Origin: a virus
Strand: one strand, 5' to 3'
DNA length: 21,105 bases
Virus record (IMG/VR): IMGVR_UViG_3300024344_000154
Span: 1-21,105 of that record
The notes below the pieces were generated by a model. That model worked only from the letters and a program-made list of their open reading frames with translations. It did not search any database and was not told the origin of the DNA. Position 1 is the stretch's first letter; the number at the start of each line of letters is the position of its first letter. Positions 675 to 20,040 of this stretch are shown here, in pieces. Both the position numbers and the translations under genes were made by a program.

Positions 675-865
675 CTGAACCTCCTAAAAAATAATCTCCA
701 TAACCAAGATCTAAACATCGATACGCACATAAATATAACGGCGATGTTAAAGCTTTCCCATACTGTAGGATACATTCCAAAAAAAGGAAAGACATATAAC
801 TGTAGTAATGTAGCTATAATTAACCCTGATCCAACGTCAATAATACTTTCAATTAGTTCCCTCAC
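671..865 (-). CDS. Small membrane protein, DUF7220-like
   Basis: This 64-residue protein starts at a GTG whose last two bases form part of the methyltransferase TGA stop (GTGA), indicating coupled translation. It has two predicted membrane segments, about residues 11-31 (VGSGLIIATLLQLYVFPFF) and 38-56, and a very basic tail (RSWLWRLFFRRFR). The layout, with an early ESI..VGSGL motif and a terminal R-rich stretch after a second helix, resembles the DUF7220 family of small phage membrane proteins as I remember it. No function is known. The basic C-terminus suggests both ends face the cytoplasm. The end of the preceding alternative frame (849) lies inside this gene's start. Confidence 0.7.
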   Translation of the reverse strand: MRELIESIIDVGSGLIIATLLQLYVFPFFGMYPTVWESFNIAVIFMCVSMFRSWLWRLFFRRFR

Positions 866-2189
866 TCTTCCCTTTCTGCTTCGATAATGGCTTTGCCGAT
901 TTCTTCCGCAATTTTCGGGACGATAGAATTTCCCAATCCTTTAAGTCTGTATACCCTGCCGGGTACCCCATGAGCCACTCGACCCACGTCGGGTTCAAAG
1001 TCCCACCAGGCGCTTTCTCCTGATACGCCATCTCCGTCTCCAAATATTTCTTGTGTTTGAGATCCGCCATCCCTTGTGACAGCTTCATTGTCATTCCTAA
1101 TCCTGCTCTCGGCGTTGGCCACATCTTGACTGCGTTCGGAAGCTGAAAGTTTCTCGTTGACACTCCTTTCCAATCTCTTGCTACCGGTGTTGGCCACATT
1201 TTCACTGTGTCCGCTAGATTTAAACTGTGACTGTTCTTGCCGTCCTTCGTCAATCTTCTGCCCGTCTTCGTTAGTTTCATGTTCGGGTGTTCTATTTCTT
1301 GTGTCGTTGGAGTGGGCAACATCTTCTTCGGTTCCACTTGTTTCTTGCCTTCCACTAACTCCGCTAGTCCTCGACCGTAACCCTTCGTTGTTCTCCCTGG
1401 TTCCTTCGCCCTTGGCGTTGGCCACATTAGATTCGGATGGGCTACCTGATCGTTGATGCTGATTGGCATACCCTTCTTTAACTTCATCTTCATTCTTTTC
1501 TCGGAGCTCGGTCCCCTGTTGCAATGTGCGTCGGGAGTCCTCCACATTTTCATGTCCAAATGTTCTGCTACGTCGTTCAGACTCGCTCCGTATTTCACTT
1601 TTGATTCTTTCCTTATCTTGCTGAAACCCGTTGACGTTTCCACCACTCTCTTGCCCTCTGCTCCTTTGTAATCTCTCGCTTTCGGAGTGGGCAACATCTT
1701 CATATCCGTTGTTGGTTTGCCGTATTGAACTTGTTCTGCTAGTGAGCCTGGCGGAACTGTTGTCCTGCCTATGCTCTTCCTGTATTCCTCTCGATGTTTC
1801 ATCGCTTCTTCCGATCTCGTCGGTCTTATCGTAGCGTTTGGCGTGAGCCACAATCCAGATTCTTTCTCTTCTGTGGGGAGCACCGACACCTGCAGCTGGA
1901 ATATTGAACGCCCTGACTTCGTATCCTTCTCCTTCCAAGTCAGTACACACAGTCTCGAAGACCATGCCGTCTTGGAGGTTAACAAGACCTTTGACATTTT
2001 CTCCAATAACCCACCTCGGCTTAAGCTCTTGGATGATTCGAAACATCTCAGGCCAGAGATGTCTGTCGTCACTCGTTCCTTTTTGTTTGCCTGCGACCGA
2101 GAACGGTTGGCAGGGGAAACCTCCTGTGATGATATCGGGAAGTTCAACTCCATCTGATTTGAGTTTTTCTTTTGTAATTTCTTTGACAT
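849..2189 (-). CDS. Candidate overprinted 446-residue protein with WPTP repeats inside the methyltransferase gene
   Basis: One frame over from the methyltransferase, 447 codons run without a stop. The protein is basic and contains seven spaced modules: WLTPNA (114-119), MLPTPKARDYKG (165-176), MWRTPDAH (215-222), MWPTPRAKE (255-263), MLPTPTTQE (290-298), MWPTPVARDWKG (331-342) and MWPTPRAG (356-363). Most follow a short S-L-x-D/A-x-V lead-in. It ends with GGTLNPTWVEWLMGYPAGYT (395-414). From memory, proteins with WPTPxARD repeats and a WVEWLMG(Y/W)PxG(W/Y)T ending recur in phage annotations; I cannot check this here. AAGGAG lies 15 bases before the ATG, longer than ideal. The WVEWLMG end is an exact frame-shifted reading of the methyltransferase VGRVAHGVPGRVYRLKG segment, so shared constraint could create the pattern without translation. 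Function unknown. Confidence 0.4.
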   Translation of the reverse strand: MSKKLQKKNSNQMELNFPISSQEVSPANRSRSQANKKERVTTDISGLRCFESSKSLSRGGLLEKMSKVLLTSKTAWSSRLCVLTWKEKDTKSGRSIFQLQVSVLPTEEKESGLWLTPNATIRPTRSEEAMKHREEYRKSIGRTTVPPGSLAEQVQYGKPTTDMKMLPTPKARDYKGAEGKRVVETSTGFSKIRKESKVKYGASLNDVAEHLDMKMWRTPDAHCNRGPSSEKRMKMKLKKGMPISINDQVAHPNLMWPTPRAKEPGRTTKGYGRGLAELVEGKKQVEPKKMLPTPTTQEIEHPNMKLTKTGRRLTKDGKNSHSLNLADTVKMWPTPVARDWKGVSTRNFQLPNAVKMWPTPRAGLGMTMKLSQGMADLKHKKYLETEMAYQEKAPGGTLNPTWVEWLMGYPAGYTDLKDWEILSSRKLRKKSAKPLSKQKGKSEGTN

Positions 2190-2346
2190 CGTTATATATC
2201 TTAACTCCTTTCCAATGTTTTTGCAGCACTAAATTGCTGTATTTATCGTTGTCACAAAAAGCTATAGTTTCAAAGTTTCCTGTACGTTCTAAGCCAAGTG
2301 AGAAACCACCTAGTCCAGAGAATAGATCAAGAATCTTTAATTTCAT
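862..2346 (-). CDS. DNA cytosine-C5 methyltransferase (Dcm-type)
   Basis: The 494-residue product has the ordered motifs of C5-cytosine methyltransferases: motif I DLFSGLGGFSLGLE (7-20, SAM binding), motif IV GGFPCQPFSVAG (75-86, catalytic Cys79), motif VI GENVKGL (115-121), motif VIII RRERIWIVA (159-167), and a C-terminal RLKGLGNSIVP (467-477, motif X). It would methylate cytosine C5 in DNA, in phages usually as protection from host restriction. What is odd is the region between motif VIII and motif X: about 290 residues rich in E, R, S, G, N and Q with repeated VAN/VAH motifs, not a recognisable target-recognition domain. A second long frame covers 1.3 kb of the gene. The start overlaps the LAGLIDADG gene by 20 bases, with only a weak ribosome site. 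Target sequence unknown. Confidence 0.9.
   Translation of the reverse strand: MKLKILDLFSGLGGFSLGLERTGNFETIAFCDNDKYSNLVLQKHWKGVKIYNDVKEITKEKLKSDGVELPDIITGGFPCQPFSVAGKQKGTSDDRHLWPEMFRIIQELKPRWVIGENVKGLVNLQDGMVFETVCTDLEGEGYEVRAFNIPAAGVGAPHRRERIWIVAHAKRYDKTDEIGRSDETSRGIQEEHRQDNSSARLTSRTSSIRQTNNGYEDVAHSESERLQRSRGQESGGNVNGFQQDKERIKSEIRSESERRSRTFGHENVEDSRRTLQQGTELREKNEDEVKEGYANQHQRSGSPSESNVANAKGEGTRENNEGLRSRTSGVSGRQETSGTEEDVAHSNDTRNRTPEHETNEDGQKIDEGRQEQSQFKSSGHSENVANTGSKRLERSVNEKLSASERSQDVANAESRIRNDNEAVTRDGGSQTQEIFGDGDGVSGESAWWDFEPDVGRVAHGVPGRVYRLKGLGNSIVPKIAEEIGKAIIEAEREE
1101..1853 (-). repeat. Seven degenerate in-frame repeat modules
   Basis: Related cores lie at 1101-1124, 1164-1199, 1296-1322, 1401-1427, 1524-1547, 1662-1697 and 1833-1853. 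On the minus strand the best copies share ATGTGGCCAACGCC or close variants (ATGTTGCCCACTCC). In the methyltransferase frame each gives VAN/VAH/VED plus A/S/T; in the second frame each gives (W/L)PTP or a near variant. Start-to-start distances are 156, 150, 120, 105, 123 and 75 bases, all multiples of three, so phase is kept in both frames. Confidence 0.75.
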
Positions 2347-2704
2347 AATGTTTAACTATACTTTCTAGTTTATCTTTTTTAGTTATGCTAAACGGTATCA
2401 TTCTTTTAGCACATTGTAAAGCATCCCTATGAGAACAACGCCAACGATATTGATCAAAATTTTGATGGGCTGCTTTTGGTCTTAAATTCATATGTCCACA
2501 ACCAAAGTTATCAAATGCAAATTGTATTGTTTTCTCACAGGTCATAGCTATTTCTAATCTTATGTTCCAGGTAGGGTAAGCTCTAGGTTTACCCTTTCTT
2601 AGTTTCATAGAATTAGAATAAGTTACACAACCTTCGCCATCGAAGAGTCCTGCTAAATAAATATCTATTTTTTTACAATCGAAAGGTTTTGATTTTCTTC
2701 CCAT
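2327..2704 (-). CDS. LAGLIDADG-family protein, single motif
   Basis: The 125-residue product carries one LAGLIDADG-type motif, YLAGLFDGEGCV at residues 16-27, containing the acidic residues Asp22 and Glu24. Downstream are a strand-like NIRLEIAMTC and the family's typical later segments, W-x-C-x-x-x-x-A and a KKDKLE-like tail. One-motif members act as homodimers when active, cutting DNA as free-standing homing endonucleases; related phage proteins may instead be regulators, and activity cannot be judged from sequence. It overlaps the coiled-coil gene upstream by 40 bases and the methyltransferase downstream by 20, so it is built into the operon rather than inserted into a gene. The ribosome site is weak (AAGA). 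Confidence 0.75.
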   Translation of the reverse strand: MGRKSKPFDCKKIDIYLAGLFDGEGCVTYSNSMKLRKGKPRAYPTWNIRLEIAMTCEKTIQFAFDNFGCGHMNLRPKAAHQNFDQYRWRCSHRDALQCAKRMIPFSITKKDKLESIVKHYEIKDS

Positions 2705-9090: not shown

Positions 9091-10549
9091 AACCTAATCT
9101 ATCCTCCTTTGCTGCCATTATGTATAAGTTTTGTTTAGTTCGCGTTACACCTACGTACCAAACTCTATGTTCTTCGTCTGCTTTCTCAGGACTCTTCTCT
9201 ATGCTTTCACGAATCTTATCTGTATTATCTAATATTAATAATACATTGTCAGCTTCTCCACCTTTAGCCGAATGAATCGTAGATAGTTTTACTCTTGCTT
9301 CCTCAGAAAGTTTTTCTTTGTTACTTAACATTTGTCTGATGTATAGAACTTGTTCAGGGTCTGCATCAAAGAGCTCGTACCATGTATCAGATGTATCAAT
9401 ATTAAAAGATTCACAGCTATAACTCTTATGATCTTCACCATCAAATTCGTGTTTTGTATAATCAAATATATCTTTTATTTCACTAGCCGTTAGTTGTGCA
9501 CCTGATGTCCACTTTGAAAAATCTCTAATAGCTTTCCATAACTTTGCACTAAAACTTTTTCGTTCTTTATATTCAAAATAAATACCACGTTCCATTAGAT
9601 ATGGTTTCATTTTAATTAAACGATAATTTGTCCGTGCAAGAACTAACCATTTACCTTGCGTAAGATCAACTTCATCAAGGTCATAAACTTCTTTACATTC
9701 ACCTTCTTCATTCCTTGGATTCCATATTTTATTTATCCTTGTATCAATCTGAGAGATGATAGAGTCTGCAACTTTCTGAACCCTAATTGGAACTCTGTAA
9801 GATTGTGGTAAAATTTTTTCTTTTGCAGGTTCATCTTGAAATCTTTTTACATCTGCTCCTGCCCAACCATAAATAGCTTGGTCATCATCACCTGCTAATA
9901 TCATAATCTTTGTATTCTTTTTAATGATGTCATACATCTTCCATTGAATTGGTGATAAGTCTTGTGCTTCATCAATAAATACTACATCAAATTTAGGGCA
10001 TAATTCTGACGAAACAAATTTTTCTATCATGTCGGTAAAGTCATACAGAACAAAAGAACTCTTATAGTTTTTAAGTTCTGCTTCTATAATCTCTACTAGA
10101 TTATAATCTATTTCATCTGAGTATAAATCTGTATTGTATTCATCTTTAGGCGTGATGTTTTTAATTCTAGCTATGTTAATAAGATTAAAGTATTCGCTAT
10201 CAGAATCAATGTATCCTGTTTCTTCTTCACCGCCCCTATAAACAGATACTTGAACACCAATAGTTCTTCCTATCTCTTCGTAGTGTTCGGGTTGCATAAC
10301 ATTATCTTTCTTCATTCCTAATGTGTTAAATGCTAGAGAGTGTAATGTTTGAAAGTGATTAAGATCTCTGTATCCATATTGTGGAAATAGTTTCAACATT
10401 CTTTCTTTGGCCTCTGTAGCTGCTTTCTTTGTAAAAGCAAAGTAACCAATCTTCTCTATTGGTGTTCCTAGTTTTAAAAATGTCTGCACATATTTTAATA
10501 GCTTTGTAGTCTTACCTGTCCCTGGTGGTCCTAGTATCTTTCTTATCAT
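9071..10549 (-). CDS. UvrD/PcrA-like superfamily 1 helicase
   Basis: The 492-residue product has the full SF1 motif set: Walker A GPPGTGKTT (7-15), Ia AFTKKAA (38-44), motif II FIDEAQDLSPIQW (191-203), motif III AGDDDQAIYGWAGA (219-232), motif IV QSYRVP (249-254), motif V STIHSAKGGEADNVLLI (423-439) and motif VI VWYVGVTRTKQNLYI (463-477). It is an ATP-driven 3'-5' DNA helicase by family. At about 490 residues it is shorter than bacterial UvrD (about 720), with reduced 1B/2B domains. It probably unwinds DNA at the phage fork or in recombination. The ATG overlaps the primase stop as ATGA. Confidence 0.93.
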   Translation of the reverse strand: MIRKILGPPGTGKTTKLLKYVQTFLKLGTPIEKIGYFAFTKKAATEAKERMLKLFPQYGYRDLNHFQTLHSLAFNTLGMKKDNVMQPEHYEEIGRTIGVQVSVYRGGEEETGYIDSDSEYFNLINIARIKNITPKDEYNTDLYSDEIDYNLVEIIEAELKNYKSSFVLYDFTDMIEKFVSSELCPKFDVVFIDEAQDLSPIQWKMYDIIKKNTKIMILAGDDDQAIYGWAGADVKRFQDEPAKEKILPQSYRVPIRVQKVADSIISQIDTRINKIWNPRNEEGECKEVYDLDEVDLTQGKWLVLARTNYRLIKMKPYLMERGIYFEYKERKSFSAKLWKAIRDFSKWTSGAQLTASEIKDIFDYTKHEFDGEDHKSYSCESFNIDTSDTWYELFDADPEQVLYIRQMLSNKEKLSEEARVKLSTIHSAKGGEADNVLLILDNTDKIRESIEKSPEKADEEHRVWYVGVTRTKQNLYIMAAKEDRLGYDIEGI

Positions 10550-12162
10550 AGTATATCCTTTTTATGTTCTGTTACCTTGTGGTAAATTTTTATCTTGTCA
10601 AATTTTTTAATTGATATCATTACAACATTTTTAGTAGGGCTGTTGTGTCTACCCTTTTCCTTAGTTGGAAATCTTTTTTGATCTAAGAAATCTATCTCAC
10701 AATCTTTATATATCTTTAACATTATAGAACCCGTCTTATCTTCAGGGTAACGCCAACCTTTGTTCTTTAATTTCTTATAGAACACATCAAATTTAAAGTA
10801 AGCATAACCTTCTTGAATTAATGTTGTACCTGTTTTAAACGATGCATCGTTCTTTGCTTCAGGTCCTGTTATCTTTTGATAAACATTGTCGTGTAATTTT
10901 TCTCTCGGTGTTGTACCAACTGGTGGTGGCATAATGGTTTGAGTTTTAAATAATACATCTAAAACTTTTTGATCGTCCCCACCTTTTTGCAGTGGTGGTA
11001 CGAATCCTGCATACTTTGCTATTGAGTTTCTTCTCTTTCTTTGATCTGTTAAATGTTCTATCGTTTTACAATGCACTGATCTTACCGTTTGTCCATCAGG
11101 TAAGGTAACATCAAAATTATATTCTGGTTCTGGTTCCAAATCCACCTTCTCTAAATTAGAACACAGTGGATAAGAATCGTGTGAGTCTGATGCAACTCCA
11201 TAAGTTCTTTTAACACAGAGTCCTCTCATACAATGTTGAGCAATAGGATCTTGATTACAAGTGTAACCTTTATAGTTTTGTTTCCATGATCTAATTTTCT
11301 GTGTAAGTTTTTGTTTAGACCAAGCTACTGAGTCTTCAAAATACAATACGGGTGCACTCATTACTTTCTCTTCCCAATTGTCAGGGTATTTCTTTTTGGC
11401 AAACACCATATAGTTATATAAAAATCTATCTCTACCATCCGATAATTTATTTTTTGACAATGCTGCTAGACAAGGTGGACCATCACGAAACTCTGCGTTT
11501 GATCCTTCTAAAACTTTCTTTTCTAGTTCATCGTCTATCTCTTTTATTCTTTCTGCTGTTATAAAATTTTCTTCAACGAGTTGTATGAATTGTTCAAAGG
11601 TAAACTCTGTCCCATCATAGTTGACAGCTCTTCTTTCCGTCTTCTTAAAGTATGGAAGATTTATAAAATTTCCTTTGTTCATCTCTCCTGTCTCACTGTC
11701 TTTGACAAGTTCTGTTTGTTTTGGAAACACTTCTGTTTCGGGTTTTAAATTAAATATTGGAATAAGGTTTGTTAAAAATGATCTTATTATTTTTGCAGGA
11801 ATAAAATTTCTTGTAAATACATATAGATGAAGTCCACCACTCTTAGATAGTATAGGTATAATCGGTAGATTATATTCTTTTATTTTATCTAAATAAAATT
11901 TTAAATCAAAGCCTGCATATTCTTGTGGGTCTATATCAATAGCACCAAACTTTGCATGATTCTTTTCGTTACAAGGTTGGATACCAATTGATTTAGTCCC
12001 TGTTAAATGTTCTTTGTAATCATCATCGGTAAGTCTTTGTTGTGCCCATCTGTATTCAGGCTTTTGTTTTTTAGAGATAGGGTCAACTTCAAGTCGCTGC
12101 ATATCAGCTTGACCATAGTTCTCAGAGAACCCACTAAATATCTGTATAAATTTTTCTTCCAT
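10546..12162 (-). CDS. Archaeo-eukaryotic-type primase (AEP/TOTE-like)
   Basis: The 538-residue product carries the AEP catalytic pattern: FGAIDID (72-78; metal ligands Asp76 and Asp78), LSKSGGLHLYVF (105-116; His112) and ETEVFPKQ (142-149), followed by GNFINLPYF (164-172). A conserved DGPPCLAAL (228-236) opens the C-terminal part, which has four cysteines (302, 311, 316, 334) spaced like a metal or Fe-S site. The family makes primers for DNA synthesis, and some members also polymerise DNA. No helicase domain is fused; the separate UvrD-like gene follows at once with a four-base overlap. Only a weak AGGA precedes the ATG, and the spacer upstream is strongly structured. Confidence 0.85.
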   Translation of the reverse strand: MEEKFIQIFSGFSENYGQADMQRLEVDPISKKQKPEYRWAQQRLTDDDYKEHLTGTKSIGIQPCNEKNHAKFGAIDIDPQEYAGFDLKFYLDKIKEYNLPIIPILSKSGGLHLYVFTRNFIPAKIIRSFLTNLIPIFNLKPETEVFPKQTELVKDSETGEMNKGNFINLPYFKKTERRAVNYDGTEFTFEQFIQLVEENFITAERIKEIDDELEKKVLEGSNAEFRDGPPCLAALSKNKLSDGRDRFLYNYMVFAKKKYPDNWEEKVMSAPVLYFEDSVAWSKQKLTQKIRSWKQNYKGYTCNQDPIAQHCMRGLCVKRTYGVASDSHDSYPLCSNLEKVDLEPEPEYNFDVTLPDGQTVRSVHCKTIEHLTDQRKRRNSIAKYAGFVPPLQKGGDDQKVLDVLFKTQTIMPPPVGTTPREKLHDNVYQKITGPEAKNDASFKTGTTLIQEGYAYFKFDVFYKKLKNKGWRYPEDKTGSIMLKIYKDCEIDFLDQKRFPTKEKGRHNSPTKNVVMISIKKFDKIKIYHKVTEHKKDIL

Positions 12163-13961: not shown

Positions 13962-13971
13962 AGATTGTCAA
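13944..13971 (-). promoter_or_regulatory. Promoter-like site for the replication operon
   Basis: On the minus strand a perfect TTGACA (13966-13971), a 16-base spacer and TATAAA (13944-13949) give a strong sigma70-like match. Start of transcription near 13937 would make the ATG at 13935 essentially leaderless. The flanking ATTGACA (13934-13940) and TGTCAAT (13966-13972) form a 7-bp inverted repeat across the region. Confidence 0.45.
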
Positions 13972-13988
13972 TAGAAAGAAGAAAAATT

Positions 13989-15416
13989 ATGGATTATAAA
14001 TTTAAGACAACACCCTATAAGCATCAAGTAACTGCTTTAGAAAATTCTTGGATGAAAGAATACTATGCCTATTTTATGGAGATGGGTACAGGTAAATCTA
14101 AAGTATTAATAGACAATGCGGCAATGCTTTATGACAACGGAAAGATTGATGGCCTTTTAATTATAGCACCTAAGGGTGTGTATAAAAATTGGCATGAATC
14201 TGAAATACCCACACATTTAGCTGATCACATTGAGAATGTGTCTGTTCTGTGGCAAGCCAATATCACTTTAAAACAAAAAAGAGACTTAGATACTTTGTTT
14301 AAAACAGATCATAAATTACATATTCTATGTATGAACGTTGAATCTTTTTCTACCAAGAAGGGCGTTGACTTTGCATACAAATTTTTATCTTGCCATAGAA
14401 CAATGATGGTTATAGATGAATCTACTACCATTAAAAATCCTAGTGCTAAACGTACTAAAAACATTTGTTCACTAGCCGAATACTCTAGATACAGAAGAAT
14501 ACTTACAGGTTCGCCTGTCACAAAATCGCCGCTAGATTTATTCAAACAATGTGAGTTCTTACGATCGGAGCTCTTAGGTCATGTATCTTTTTATACCTTT
14601 AGACAAAGGTATGCTGTTATGAGAAAGATGAATTTTGGTGGAAGATCTGTAGAGATTCCAATTGGTTATAGAAATCTTGATGAGTTAAGCGTTAAATTAA
14701 AAGCTTTTTCGTATAGGGTATTGAAAGATGAATGTTTAGATTTACCTAAAAAAACTTTTATGAAAAGAATTATTCAACTATCTCCTGATCAATTTAAATT
14801 ATATGATCAAATGAAACAAATGGCTTTAGCACTACATAATGGCAAAAGTATGACCACAGCCACAGTTTTAACACAATTAATGAGATTACAGCAGATAACT
14901 TGCGGCCACTTTACGGCAGATGATGGAACGCTACAAGATATTAAAAACAATCGACTCGAAGAATTAATTAATGTTTTACATGAAGTTGAAGGCAAGGTTG
15001 TCATTTGGGCTCATTGGCAAAGAGATGTTAATAAAATTATTGAAGCTATTAAAAAAGAATTTGATGAAGACTGTGTGGATTACTATGGCCTTACACCTAG
15101 TGCGGACAGACAAAAAAATATTAAGAAGTTTCAAGAAGATCCTAATTGCAGATTCTTTGTAGGGACTCCACAAACCGGAGGTTATGGTATTACTTTAACA
15201 GCTGCATCAACAATGGTTTATTATTCTAATGGGTATGACCTTGAAAAAAGAATGCAATCAGAAGCTAGAATCGATCGTATTGGACAAACTAAACCTATGA
15301 CTTATATTGATATAATCTGTGAAGATACAGTAGATCAAAAGATTGTAAAATCTCTTAGAAAGAAAGTTGATATTGCAACTCAGATTATGGGTGAAGAATT
15401 AAAAGATTGGATTTAA
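13989..15416 (+). CDS. SNF2-like superfamily 2 helicase (rightward)
   Basis: The 475-residue product from the ATG at 13989 (preceded by a purine-rich AGAAG) is an SNF2-type ATPase: Walker A EMGTGKSK (31-38), LLIIAPKGVYKNW (56-68, motif Ia), motif II VIDESTTIKN (141-150), motif III LTGSPVTKSPLDL (172-184), then VVIWAHWQRDV (337-347), VGTPQTGGYGITLTAAS (391-407) and QSEARIDRIGQ (423-433, motif VI). Motif II reads DEST rather than DEAH. Such proteins translocate on duplex DNA and remodel complexes; in phages they are linked to replication or recombination. A longer frame from a TTG at 13965 lacks support. It is on the opposite strand to all its neighbours. Confidence 0.93.
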   Translation: MDYKFKTTPYKHQVTALENSWMKEYYAYFMEMGTGKSKVLIDNAAMLYDNGKIDGLLIIAPKGVYKNWHESEIPTHLADHIENVSVLWQANITLKQKRDLDTLFKTDHKLHILCMNVESFSTKKGVDFAYKFLSCHRTMMVIDESTTIKNPSAKRTKNICSLAEYSRYRRILTGSPVTKSPLDLFKQCEFLRSELLGHVSFYTFRQRYAVMRKMNFGGRSVEIPIGYRNLDELSVKLKAFSYRVLKDECLDLPKKTFMKRIIQLSPDQFKLYDQMKQMALALHNGKSMTTATVLTQLMRLQQITCGHFTADDGTLQDIKNNRLEELINVLHEVEGKVVIWAHWQRDVNKIIEAIKKEFDEDCVDYYGLTPSADRQKNIKKFQEDPNCRFFVGTPQTGGYGITLTAASTMVYYSNGYDLEKRMQSEARIDRIGQTKPMTYIDIICEDTVDQKIVKSLRKKVDIATQIMGEELKDWI

Positions 15417-15607
15417 TTAAACATTCTTTCCAACACAAAAACAACTGCTGTTCCCGCAACAGTTAAAAGAACCCAATAGATTTGATCTATCTTACCGCCC
15501 AACTTTTCTACGTCTTCGTGTACATGTTTTAAATTTTTCTTGACACCTGATATGTGTCCATACAAAGATAAAATGTGTTCTCTTGTGTTTTTAGGTTCTA
15601 TTGCCAT
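15413..15607 (-). CDS. XhlA-like holin or membrane-anchored coiled-coil protein
   Basis: The 64-residue product has a coiled-coil N-terminal half (HISGVKKNLKHVHEDVEKLG) and one C-terminal membrane helix at about 43-60 (IYWVLLTVAGTAVVFVLERM). This order, helix first and anchor last, is that of the XhlA/haemolysin family associated with phage lysis, and the IYWxLLTxxG motif is typical. Holin function is inferred. The ATG overlaps the stop of the virion gene as TAATG, with GAGGA just upstream; the TAA interlocks with the helicase stop in TTAA (15413-15416). Confidence 0.68.
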   Translation of the reverse strand: MAIEPKNTREHILSLYGHISGVKKNLKHVHEDVEKLGGKIDQIYWVLLTVAGTAVVFVLERMFN

Positions 15608-18600
15608 TATATTCCTCTCATTGCGTTGTCGTATTCTATTTTTTCTGCAACCGTCATTTGATTGTAAGGTTTCATGGTCCCTGATGCCTGGGTCGTGTTG
15701 CCTACAATACTTGCATTGGGTGCACCGCCCGATACTATGTTTGAAGTTAGTCTGTCAAATTTTTTACCTAATGTACTTGGTGCACTAGGCATTTCAAATT
15801 TAGGCATTGTAAATACATCTTCTCCTAAATCTAATCTTCGATTTGTATTAATTATTTTATTTAGATAAGGTAATGCTTTTGGATAAGGGTTTGGTAGATT
15901 AACTCCTTCTACTCTATTGAGATTTCTATTTATCTCTGCTAGTCTGTCAATAAAGAAATCACTAGGATACTCAGGTGTGTATTTTCCTATTAATAGATTA
16001 TCAATAACATCTCTTTTGATACCTTTTCTTTTTTCTAACTCTGTTCTTATTTTAAAATTTTTCATTCCTAAAGTTTTCATTGCTTCAACATCTTTGTACA
16101 TTTCTTTTAAAGTATTAAATCTTCTAGACTCGGCATAACCAAATCGTTCTATGATTTCTTCAGGAGATACACGTCCACCTCTAAGCAGTGGTCCGATAAA
16201 TAAGTTGTAATCTTTTTTTAAGTTAGAACCGAAAGCTGTTGTCTTATATTTAAGAGCTCGTTCTGGATCAGAGTTTATAACTCTCATTCCATATAGTCCA
16301 TGTATCTCATCGCTTAAATTAAATGATCTACCGTAATCATCACTTACCCCTGTTGTAGATTGTGCAAGTCTTTTAAACTGAGACAATGATCCAGGAGCTA
16401 GTGATTTTGCTATATGTGATATTCCTTTAAAAGCCCTAACACCAAAGTCATCTTCTTCTGACCATATTTTTCTACCACCTCTACCAACTCCTCTCCTAAT
16501 CACTGAGTCTAGTAATGCTTCTGTGTAGATAGATTCTGTTGCATAAGGTTTTAAAATTTCTGACATACTATCTGCCATTCCCGCAGCAAGTCCTGCTTTT
16601 AAAGATTTATTGTCTGCGTTCGCTTGAGATAAACCACCATACACAGCCATAACAGGTCTTATAACAGTGTCATATGCATTTGAGTAACTGAAATCAATGT
16701 ATTTTAAATATCCATTTTTGTCTCTACCCATAGGAACAAGTGTAGAATTTTTAGACCACTCAGGCACGACTCTTCGAAGTGCTTTCATTTCTTCATCGTC
16801 CACATCGTGATAAGCTTTAGCTGCACCTACGATTGCTGTAGGAACTCCAACAGCTGTTGCACCAAAACTAGCTAATCTTTTATATCCAAGTTTTTCAATT
16901 TGAGGGATACCACTTGTTATATCGTCAATTGATCTAGTTATAATATTATTACTTGTTCTCATAATTTCTAATGGAAAGGCTATGAAGTTTCCAAAAGGTG
17001 ATTGTCTTAATGCTCTTGCTGTCATACCTACATAACCATAGTTAGGTACCTGATTACGTGTCAAATTACCTGCTATCTCATCTAAAAAATTACTATACTG
17101 TTGAGCATTACCTACACCACTTTCTATATAACTTGTTCTTTGAGCGAGTTTAGTAAAGTAATCTGTTATCGCTTGACCATTTTCACCAAGTGCTTCTATA
17201 GCCTCTTTGCTTTTTGCTTGTCTAATTGCAAAGTCTTCAGCTGTTTCAGTTAATCTTTGTGGTACTTTAGAATCTATTAATGCTTTAAAATTATCTTCTG
17301 TTACACCTATTTCTTTTGTTAAAGTTGAATACCTGTTTCTTTCAAGGTTCCAATTTATAATTTTCCAAAAATCATCTTCAGCTACATATGCATCTTGAAG
17401 TTTAGCAAAGCCTTTTAATAATTTTCTTTTTGTTTCTGCTCCTACTTTTTGTGGAACCTTTGTCATTAAACTTCTATCAACTGCAGCAGGGTCTTTAAAC
17501 ATATCTCTAAATAATCTTTTTGTTTCGTTCGCTTGAACTTGAGAATCAACCACTCCAACTTTTAAAAGTCTTTGATATAATTCTGAATCTGCTTTGGTCA
17601 TTGTACCAAAAACTCTTTTACCTGAAATGCCGTACGCCTGTCGGTATACAGATTGATTAGAAAAAGGATTTAATAATTTCCAATCTCCATAGTTTGGAAA
17701 GAACGCACCATTAGCAGCAACAAATGCTCCTGCACTAACTGCGTTTCGAACGTGTGTTAATGGAGATAAAATTGTTTTTGCAATCTGTGACCCTGCTTTA
17801 GGTGCAAGCACAAGCGTTTTATAGAAAGGACCAATGTGACCAGTGTTTAACCAATTGCTTGAAGTGTCAAAGATACCTTCATACATAGGAGCTTTTATAT
17901 ATTTACCATCTAATGGTGTAGGAATCTTAGCTGCCTTTTCTACCTTTCTCCATTTTCTAGGATCGTCAAATTGTAGTTCGTCTGCAACCTGTCCTCTTAT
18001 GGTTTTCTCTAATGCTTCATCAGCAGCATCATCAAAAGCTGGCCCTGTATATCCTACAAGTCTATCTTTTTTTGCCTGTGTAATTCTACTTTGAATTATT
18101 CTTTCAGGATCAATAACAAAAGGGTCACTACCCTCTACTCCTATTTTAGCAATATCATCCATATAAGAAAGAGTACCATTTAAATTTGCTTGTTTAGCAA
18201 CCGTTGAGAAAAAAGTATACGATGGATCTTTTATTTCACCGAGTAATTCTCTTTGCCAATTTTGAATCATTTCTGATTTTTTAAGTATGCCTTCTTTAAT
18301 TTGAATTTCATTTAAAGTTTCTTTTCCAATGTTTGATTCTGCTAAATATCTTGGGTCTACTTCATCGTTAGCCATTTTTTTCATATAGTCTTCTACCTGT
18401 ATTCTAGCTTTATCTTTTATTTTAGCTAACTCATCAGGCGTAGCTGTTTTACCTAAAGCCCTTAATTCACTTTGGACAAATAATTCTTCTGATCTATCAA
18501 TAATTTGTTGAGTTGGTTTGTATTTATAAAAACCAAAAAAACCTTTTTGTTCATATTGTCTATAAGTTGTATTTAAATAACGACCAAAATTACTTCTAAC

Positions 18601-20040
18601 AGCTTCACTAACTTCTTTAGGCATCTGCCTTTGAAGAAGTCTTGCGGACATATTATCTACAGCTAGACGCATATCAAAAATATTATTCTTTAATCTTTCA
18701 GCTGCTTCCTCTCCTGAACTTTCTTTAACAAGCTTCATAAGATCATCCATTTCTTTTGTTGCTTGAAGATCACTTTTTTGAAACACACCTTGTTCATCAA
18801 ACTTTTTAACTTGATCTACAATATCGGGGTATTGTTTTGTTAATAATTTAAATCTGTCTTTTAAATCAACTAATAAACTTTCTAATGCCTCATCATTTAA
18901 ATTTTTACCTTGTGATGTAGCAACTTCTAATAATTCTTTTTGTAAATTTTTATATTTAAATACAGGATCCATTTCTTTTAATTTTAAGTTTGCAGTCTTA
19001 AGATTTAAAAGTCTATCAGCGTCAGTTGATTTAGGACTAATTATGCTTTGAATTTTTTCTAAAACTTTTGCGTGAGCATTATCTGTTGTTTTTAAACCAC
19101 TATTTTTTAAATAGTCATCGTAAAAAGAATCACCTAGATTTCTTAAATTTTTTTCTAAAGAGTTTGTTAATTCAGTAGCTCCAACTGCTACTGCTTTTTC
19201 AATTCCTTTAGCGGCTTCTTTAGCTTCGAAAGTAGCAGCAGTATTAAAACCTTTTGCACTTAAACCATACTCTCCATACTTTTGTAAAAAAGCTTCTACT
19301 CTACCTTTTGCAAATTCATCGGGTGCAGCTTCTTTAGGATTTCTTAAAGTTTGAATACCTTTACCTGCTCCAACTAAAGCAAGATTAAATAGAGCACCCT
19401 CAGTTCCAAATTTTAATCTGTTAACTATTCTTCTTAGTGCGTCTTGTCTACCTTCTAAAGTTTCATCTTTATTCATCATAGTAAGAGCAAAAGGTTCTAG
19501 TGATGTGCCTCTAGCTATGTCTGCAAAAGTTCCAATATCTTCATCAGCTACAACTGCCTCTCCAAGTCCGCCTCCTATAACACCTCCTGTTATTGCTGCT
19601 CTCGTAGGTGTCTTAGAAATTAAATTACCAACTCTAGCTAAACTCATATAGCTACCTGCTCTTTTAGCTTCAACTGCCTTCTTTGCTAAATCAGCAGCAG
19701 TTCTCGCTTGCCAAGCCTTAGCTGCCGTTGAGCCTACTTTAAAACCATAACCTGCGGGTATTGCTATCTGAGATATTGCTTGAGTTATTTTACCAACGGT
19801 TCTTGCTTCAGCTTCATCGTCCCAAGGGTTAACATCATCAAACCATTCTTCAACGCTTTTGGCTGTGTTAGTGTCTGCCGCTAAATCAAATATAGTTGCA
19901 CCAAGTGAGAATACACCTTTAGGTATATTCCAAAGTCCTGTTGCTACACCTGCTAACGCAGACTCAAAAAAACCTACGTCGTTATCTTTCTTTTTCTTTT
20001 GTTGTTGAGAGCCGTATACTTCATCCAATGATTTTGGCAT
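15607..20040 (-). CDS. Very large virion-type protein (candidate internal or ejection protein)
   Basis: The 1477-residue product is the longest gene here. It has glycine/alanine-rich hydrophobic segments near the N-terminus (about 23-54 and 148-166) and another near 1055-1077 (ATAVGVPTAIVGAAKAY), separated by long helical, charged stretches. Such size and alternation of amphipathic helices with membrane-active segments fit internal virion or DNA-ejection proteins of short-tailed phages. I see no transglycosylase ESxxNP motif and no RNA polymerase motifs. AGGAGG lies just before the ATG, the strongest ribosome site of the window, suggesting high expression. It follows the partial virion-type gene directly and precedes the holin-like gene. 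Assignment rests on size, composition and position. Confidence 0.7.
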   Translation of the reverse strand: MPKSLDEVYGSQQQKKKKDNDVGFFESALAGVATGLWNIPKGVFSLGATIFDLAADTNTAKSVEEWFDDVNPWDDEAEARTVGKITQAISQIAIPAGYGFKVGSTAAKAWQARTAADLAKKAVEAKRAGSYMSLARVGNLISKTPTRAAITGGVIGGGLGEAVVADEDIGTFADIARGTSLEPFALTMMNKDETLEGRQDALRRIVNRLKFGTEGALFNLALVGAGKGIQTLRNPKEAAPDEFAKGRVEAFLQKYGEYGLSAKGFNTAATFEAKEAAKGIEKAVAVGATELTNSLEKNLRNLGDSFYDDYLKNSGLKTTDNAHAKVLEKIQSIISPKSTDADRLLNLKTANLKLKEMDPVFKYKNLQKELLEVATSQGKNLNDEALESLLVDLKDRFKLLTKQYPDIVDQVKKFDEQGVFQKSDLQATKEMDDLMKLVKESSGEEAAERLKNNIFDMRLAVDNMSARLLQRQMPKEVSEAVRSNFGRYLNTTYRQYEQKGFFGFYKYKPTQQIIDRSEELFVQSELRALGKTATPDELAKIKDKARIQVEDYMKKMANDEVDPRYLAESNIGKETLNEIQIKEGILKKSEMIQNWQRELLGEIKDPSYTFFSTVAKQANLNGTLSYMDDIAKIGVEGSDPFVIDPERIIQSRITQAKKDRLVGYTGPAFDDAADEALEKTIRGQVADELQFDDPRKWRKVEKAAKIPTPLDGKYIKAPMYEGIFDTSSNWLNTGHIGPFYKTLVLAPKAGSQIAKTILSPLTHVRNAVSAGAFVAANGAFFPNYGDWKLLNPFSNQSVYRQAYGISGKRVFGTMTKADSELYQRLLKVGVVDSQVQANETKRLFRDMFKDPAAVDRSLMTKVPQKVGAETKRKLLKGFAKLQDAYVAEDDFWKIINWNLERNRYSTLTKEIGVTEDNFKALIDSKVPQRLTETAEDFAIRQAKSKEAIEALGENGQAITDYFTKLAQRTSYIESGVGNAQQYSNFLDEIAGNLTRNQVPNYGYVGMTARALRQSPFGNFIAFPLEIMRTSNNIITRSIDDITSGIPQIEKLGYKRLASFGATAVGVPTAIVGAAKAYHDVDDEEMKALRRVVPEWSKNSTLVPMGRDKNGYLKYIDFSYSNAYDTVIRPVMAVYGGLSQANADNKSLKAGLAAGMADSMSEILKPYATESIYTEALLDSVIRRGVGRGGRKIWSEEDDFGVRAFKGISHIAKSLAPGSLSQFKRLAQSTTGVSDDYGRSFNLSDEIHGLYGMRVINSDPERALKYKTTAFGSNLKKDYNLFIGPLLRGGRVSPEEIIERFGYAESRRFNTLKEMYKDVEAMKTLGMKNFKIRTELEKRKGIKRDVIDNLLIGKYTPEYPSDFFIDRLAEINRNLNRVEGVNLPNPYPKALPYLNKIINTNRRLDLGEDVFTMPKFEMPSAPSTLGKKFDRLTSNIVSGGAPNASIVGNTTQASGTMKPYNQMTVAEKIEYDNAMRGI

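Follow-up and report, generated by a model that had tools for sequence, protein, structure and literature searches.

Closest described methyltransferases

In the Bacillus phages of the SPbeta group (SPR, phi3T, and rho11s), C5-methyltransferases carry several short recognition domains in a row, and these domains are exchanged between phages. A different arrangement is found in M.EcoHK31I (YGGCCR), in which a smaller polypeptide of about 176 amino acids is encoded in an alternative frame inside the gene of the larger one. M.EcoHK31I is a two-polypeptide C5-methyltransferase whose larger chain holds motifs I-VIII and X and whose smaller chain holds motif IX; its predicted recognition domain was placed in the larger subunit and not in the smaller one (PMC3404938). 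M.AquI (CYCGRG) is also composed of two polypeptides (PMC3404938). It is split within the variable region, and motifs IX and X stay together on the same chain.

The stretch analysed here (the window) comprises 21,105 nt, positions 1 to 21,105 of the IMG/VR virus record IMGVR_UViG_3300024344_000154. It very probably codes for a cytosine-5 DNA methyltransferase made of two subunits, alpha and beta, whose frames overlap and which act as one enzyme. As in M.EcoHK31I, alpha holds motifs I-VIII and X, beta holds motif IX, and the gene of the smaller chain overlaps that of the larger one in another frame. Unlike the smaller chain of M.EcoHK31I, beta has 446 amino acids with seven shuffled modules and is the chain to which target recognition is provisionally assigned; the locus is, moreover, phage-borne, and no restriction enzyme was recognised alongside it. 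In contrast to M.AquI, the window keeps motif X on alpha. The multispecific enzymes of the SPbeta group may serve as a working analogy for the module array, although they are single chains read in one frame. The second-frame protein itself corresponds to the family phrog_1008 and, in Paenibacillus larvae phages, to the “internal gene” (DIVA_50, LILY_63); these proteins have fewer modules and carry the labels “hypothetical protein” or “DNA methyltransferase,” with no subunit reading attached. What is apparently new is the large shuffled array, with seven modules in the window, together with the change of the selected frame along the locus and the broad distribution among phages.

Organization of the locus

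The two genes and their parts, all on the minus strand, are located in the window as follows.

862-2346, minus strand: alpha, the C5-methyltransferase frame with motifs I-VIII, a linker, and motif X, 494 amino acids (PF00145, E=3.1e-49)
849-2189, minus strand: beta, the second frame, 446 amino acids, ATG start, +1 relative to alpha (ORF; phrog_1008, E=6.9e-28)
1840-2346, minus strand: catalytic region of alpha, motifs I to VIII (sequence positions; pLDDT mostly 80-97 at residues 1-170)
2098-2124, 1993-2004, and 1840-1872, minus strand: motif marks of alpha, GGFPCQPFS, GENV, and RRERIWIVAHA, respectively (sequence positions)
982-1839, minus strand: linker of alpha, hydrophilic and apparently disordered, the same DNA as the beta modules (pLDDT 30-50; substitution rates)
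868-957, minus strand: motif X helix of alpha, with RLKGLGNSIVP at 916-948 (aligned with M.HhaI 299-318, weak score)
2205-2211, minus strand: possible ribosome-binding site of beta, AAAGGAG, 15 nt before the beta ATG (long spacing)
1851-2057, minus strand: N-terminal conserved part of beta, SGxxC ... LTWKxKxTKxxRxxFQL (conserved columns, alignment A4)
1695-1850, minus strand: beta module 1, WLTPNATIRPTRSEE...
1545-1694, minus strand: beta module 2, LPTPKARDYKG...
1425-1544, minus strand: beta module 3, WRTPDAHCNRGPSSEKRMKMKL..., belonging to the most frequent class of module (cluster of 50 loci)
1320-1424, minus strand: beta module 4, WPTPRAKEPGR...
1197-1319, minus strand: beta module 5, LPTPTTQEIEHPNMKLTKTGRR... 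(100% identical to module 1 of locus L016)
1122-1196, minus strand: beta module 6, WPTPVARDWKG...
999-1121, minus strand: beta module 7, WPTPRAGLGMTMK...
948-998, minus strand: beta motif IX, LNPTWVEWLMGYPAGYT, residues 398-414 (its counterpart in locus L200 aligns to motif IX of M.HhaI)

The seven [W/L]xTP modules of beta start at residues 114, 166, 216, 256, 291, 332, and 357, and the N-terminal conserved part, which overlaps motifs IV-VIII of alpha, is partly found in the free-standing beta of locus L184 as well. The modules and the tail reported in the earlier note are thus present. The tail had been taken there for a frame-shifted reading of motif X; it is more than that, namely motif IX, and it stops where motif X of alpha starts in the other frame.

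Several other genes of the window were also noted. An ORF at 2327-2704 (minus strand) is weakly similar to LAGLIDADG endonucleases (PF00961, E=0.0029, below the cut-off) and lies just upstream of the methyltransferase start, with an overlap of about 20 nt. A primase-like gene at 10546-12162 (minus strand), matching the AEP domain of TOTE conflict systems (PF22548, E=7.2e-15), adjoins a UvrD-like helicase gene, and a family A DNA polymerase gene is nearby. The SNF2-family helicase gene at 13965-15416 (PF00176) is the sole plus-strand gene among the larger likely genes. The 1,477-amino acid protein encoded at 15607-20040 (minus strand) had no Pfam match and is probably a large virion protein.

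Openness of the second frame

The joint openness of two same-strand frames described in the earlier note was confirmed, the ORF at 849-2189 being nested in the frame at 862-2346. When synonymous methyltransferase codons of the window were permuted, 10.8 +/- 1.9 second-frame stops were expected over 442 codons, and none was seen. The same shuffle with the phage's own codon usage, taken from its other genes, gave an expectation of 22.3 +/- 3.4 stops. The second frame contains seven [WL]xTP motifs as compared with 0.7 expected, a number reached by 0 of 5,000 shuffles, and the third frame of the same strand has 42 stops. Since synonymous shuffles produce stops and none is observed, a chance origin of the open frame in the window is excluded.

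The result extended to 46 loci with 8,658 linker codons in total, where no stop was found in the second frame (164 expected) or in the methyltransferase frame (279 expected), while the third-frame control had 744 stops against 712 expected. Chance and codon bias were ruled out as explanations by the synonymous shuffles in both directions. Selection holds both frames open; the overlapping one is a genuine gene, conserved and protein-coding. Because stops are avoided in both frames, the methyltransferase must be read through to motif X, even though the residues passed on the way hardly matter.

Distribution and existing annotation

Of about 280 related loci, nearly all have both frames open. When the second-frame protein was used as the query, 80 viral contigs were retrieved, all with both frames open and in the same +1 phase. 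To avoid the bias of this choice, a further set of loci was selected through the methyltransferase protein alone; in this set, 70 of 78 loci had no second-frame stop between motifs IV and X, whereas the third frame averaged 20.6 stops. In two of the exceptions that were read by eye (L155 and L159), the second-frame stop falls after motif IX.

Isolate phages infecting Lacticaseibacillus, Paenibacillus, and Bacteroides share this layout, as do an uncultured marine phage and bacterial contigs from many phyla; bacterial and plasmid copies exist. Among the genomes sampled from two bacterial classes, 13 of 369 and 7 of 395 carried the locus, nearly always in dual-coded form. The recurrence in phage annotations, to which the earlier note had pointed, was borne out by the phrog_1008 match and by phage records in which the second frame appears as an “internal gene” or as a second “DNA methyltransferase.” The nested ORF is called “g49 internal gene” in Paenibacillus phage Diva and “g62 internal gene” in Paenibacillus phage Lily, and the records of Jacopo and of Xanthomonas phage PhiXhv-5 each list two methyltransferase CDSs that overlap. 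The literature search found no paper describing such an overlap in phages or the nested protein as a subunit.

Selection on the two frames

Mismatch rates were counted per methyltransferase codon position (1/2/3) in loci chosen by the methyltransferase frame. The non-overlapping 5' part had rates of.206/.099/.378. Over motifs IV-VIII they were.157/.096/.258, and the linker from motif VIII to motif X gave.297/.121/.066. Expressed in second-frame codon positions, the linker rates are.121/.066/.297, which is the normal coding pattern. Linker changes that are silent in the methyltransferase and alter the second frame had a rate of.054, as compared with.396 for changes that are silent in the second frame and alter the methyltransferase; the latter value is near the.456 of methyltransferase-silent changes in the 5' part. 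Position 3 had a lower rate than position 1 in the linker of 63 of 64 loci and in the 5' part of 0 of 80, a uniform result at the level of loci, although the locus pairs share ancestry and their counts are not independent. The window's own pairs concur, for example with 36/13/6 mismatches against L087. A selection bias from loci chosen by the second frame was ruled out, as loci drawn via the methyltransferase frame alone gave the same result.

Beyond motif VIII, selection acts on the second frame, and each frame is constrained over a different part. The rates suggest that the region of alpha corresponding to the predicted recognition domain in the larger chain of M.EcoHK31I is, in this family, under no amino-acid selection. 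The proposal that the second frame encodes a dual-coded protein is borne out by the missing stops together with the selection on this frame in the linker. In the tests proposed to refute it, no stops were found in close homologues, and the methyltransferase-synonymous sites were strongly conserved.

These rates also bear on the possibility that the second frame is open and repetitive merely as a by-product of the methyltransferase protein, base composition, or DNA repeats. GC is higher within the overlap, and constraint shared with the methyltransferase, which the earlier note had put forward as a caveat, does explain part of the beta conservation over motifs IV-VIII. It explains nothing beyond them: in the linker, the methyltransferase residues are variable and the second-frame residues are the conserved ones, the open frame is not reproduced by synonymous shuffles, and a free-standing copy of beta exists in L184. 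The by-product reading is already refuted for the linker, and as an account of the locus we regard it as having almost no chance of being right.

The catalytic chain

The PF00145 match of alpha is accompanied by invariant PCQ (catalytic cysteine) and ENV in alignment A6. The alpha profile aligned to M.HhaI over motifs I-VIII and, weakly, over motif X, with nothing between them. The AlphaFold model of alpha was similar to M.HhaI over 197 residues (Z=20.8, rmsd 3.1); pLDDT was mostly 80-97 in the core (residues 1-170), with lower values in loops, and 70-92 in the C-terminal helix, and approximately residues 180-460, with pLDDT of 30-50, were almost without secondary structure. Neither motif IX nor a folded target recognition domain was recognisable in the overlap part of alpha by M.HhaI profile alignment or in the AlphaFold model. 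Given this and the nearly free residues of the overlap, it is most likely the second frame that contributes the enzyme's missing half.

Motif IX and the start of beta

The consensus of the beta tail, LNPxWVEWLMGxPxGYT, corresponds to motif IX of C5-methyltransferases, and, judging from sequence, the tail is the missing motif IX. The phrog_1008 profile matched beta at positions 40-212 of 329, and a genome search recovered the same frame at 942-2168. Pfam and NCBIfam searches with beta gave no useful match, an NCBIfam MvaT hit (E=0.088) being taken as noise, and a profile search against solved structures gave no match. The AlphaFold model of beta (mean pLDDT 54.9) was too poor for fold comparison.

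The start of beta lies in a common place, a median of 139 nt after motif I among homologous starts, and an SD-like site was found 4-18 nt upstream of 122 of 193 homologous beta starts as compared with 22% of internal ATGs. In the window, the AAAGGAG at 15 nt was treated as just outside the range counted for SD-like sites; this spacing is not ideal, and therefore the beta start of the window is not certain.

An alternative route to the same parts would be a single polypeptide made through two programmed frameshifts, with a slip from motifs I-VIII to the modules and motif IX and a slip back to motif X. If the frames switched twice, the order I-VIII, modules, IX, X would be canonical. However, the methyltransferase frame is kept open through the whole linker, which would then be needless; the conservation of beta reaches far upstream of motif VIII, and beta has the common, often SD-preceded start region; and in L184 beta is a separate gene. 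For these reasons, the double frameshift seems to us highly improbable.

Loci with other arrangements

Three relatives show the parts of the two frames in other combinations. In L200, RLNPDWVEWLMGYPISWT...LMALGNSVVP stands in the methyltransferase frame, inside a PF00145 match covering 2-322 of 324, and this stretch aligned with the motif IX-X region of M.HhaI (as a weak second domain). L207 (2191-3493) has an AquI-like division: alpha ends behind motif VIII, and a single second-frame ORF comprises the modules together with motifs IX and X. In L184, a free-standing beta gene, which contains modules and LNPVWVEWLMGYPANWT, comes next after alpha; the methyltransferase frame under this gene has 12 stops, i.e., no methyltransferase frame exists there, and the overlapped beta copy of the same locus has lost motif IX. 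The separate gene of L184 shows, therefore, that the second-frame protein is real outside the overlap.

Of 12 apparent free-standing copies of beta, most were beta ORFs that overlapped a normal alpha and ran past its stop; therefore, only L184 counts as free-standing, and L207 and the downstream ORF of L254 count partly. L184, L200, and L207 are single contigs of assembled metagenomes, and L200 and L207 could each hold an indel error; this concern is smaller for L184, because decayed and intact copies of the beta region stand there side by side. In L005 (1800-2636), L176 (2134-3182), and L308, the methyltransferase ORF is broken between frames, which may reflect indel errors or frame rearrangements like that of L207.

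The in-frame motif IX of L200 and L207 together with the separate gene of L184 indicate that beta is not an unrelated overprinted gene. Such a protein, with another role (e.g., anti-restriction or regulatory) and overprinted on a complete, self-sufficient methyltransferase, would be in line with the selection on a distinct protein, with the lack of a matching Pfam family or solved structure, and with the relatives in which beta is extended by more modules and a C-terminal HTH-like part. An extra gene inside a complete methyltransferase was also the view of the earlier note. It was not supported: within the overlap, the methyltransferase frame has no recognisable motif IX or folded recognition domain and its amino acids are under almost no constraint, and the beta tail is a motif IX that is joined in frame to the catalytic core in L200 and to motif X in L207. 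We consider a separate role of beta very improbable.

The module array

Among 124 distinct second-frame proteins, one to seven modules precede motif IX, and the median module length is 41 residues. Module classes recur at differing positions, as in the case of module 5 of the window and module 1 of L016, and 445 pairs of modules with at least 80% identity came from loci with catalytic cores less than 60% identical. The modules have conserved edges and a variable middle and are placed between motif VIII and motif IX; target recognition is, therefore, the natural reading. From this position and pattern, they are most likely DNA-recognition modules in place of a target recognition domain. The array may give the enzyme several specificities and, in this way, protect the phage DNA from several restriction enzymes.

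In L020 (475-2208), L040 (789-2030), and L043 (2992-4797), the beta frame extends past the stop of alpha, adding WPTP modules, a conserved C-terminal part, or both; in L254 (2276-3499 and 3565-4011), beta is extended as well, and the C-terminal part is a separate downstream ORF. The extensions reach 100-230 codons past the alpha stop in these four loci, three of which have the C-terminal part RTPTAIDS...TTVEHWFR. This part, without a confident Pfam match, is possibly an HTH-like domain.

Proposed two-subunit enzyme

In the two-subunit explanation that we favour, alpha (862-2346) would provide the AdoMet-binding and catalytic core (motifs I-VIII) and, via a long unstructured linker, motif X as the closing helix. 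Beta (849-2189), whose start lies within alpha in the +1 frame, would provide motif IX and seven modules of about 40 residues replacing the target recognition domain, and the two chains would assemble into one active enzyme. The DNA encoding beta would be translated in the alpha frame only for reaching motif X, so that alpha residues would drift freely there while stops would be barred. We infer that beta is translated independently, that alpha and beta form a complex, and that the modules read DNA.

A wider generalization, to which we give somewhat less than even chances, is that these loci form a widespread class of phage and prophage enzymes that are dual-coded by necessity. Their array of mobile modules of about 40 residues would have a target of its own for each module, and the exchange of cassettes would rebuild the methylation. 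As module swaps must keep both frames open, phages would exchange dual-frame cassettes.

If the two-subunit explanation is right, the common phage annotation “DNA cytosine methyltransferase” often denotes half an enzyme, the other half lying hidden in the second frame, where it is mostly missed or mislabelled, and studies of conservation or expression of such methyltransferases that ignore the second frame will mislead. The overlap would rank with the longer and better conserved of the same-strand gene overlaps in phages, and its upkeep would have a clear reason, as it would encode two pieces of one enzyme with selection passing between the frames. The shuffled modules could represent a readable code for the sequences methylated by phages and provide new parts for the study of methylation specificity.
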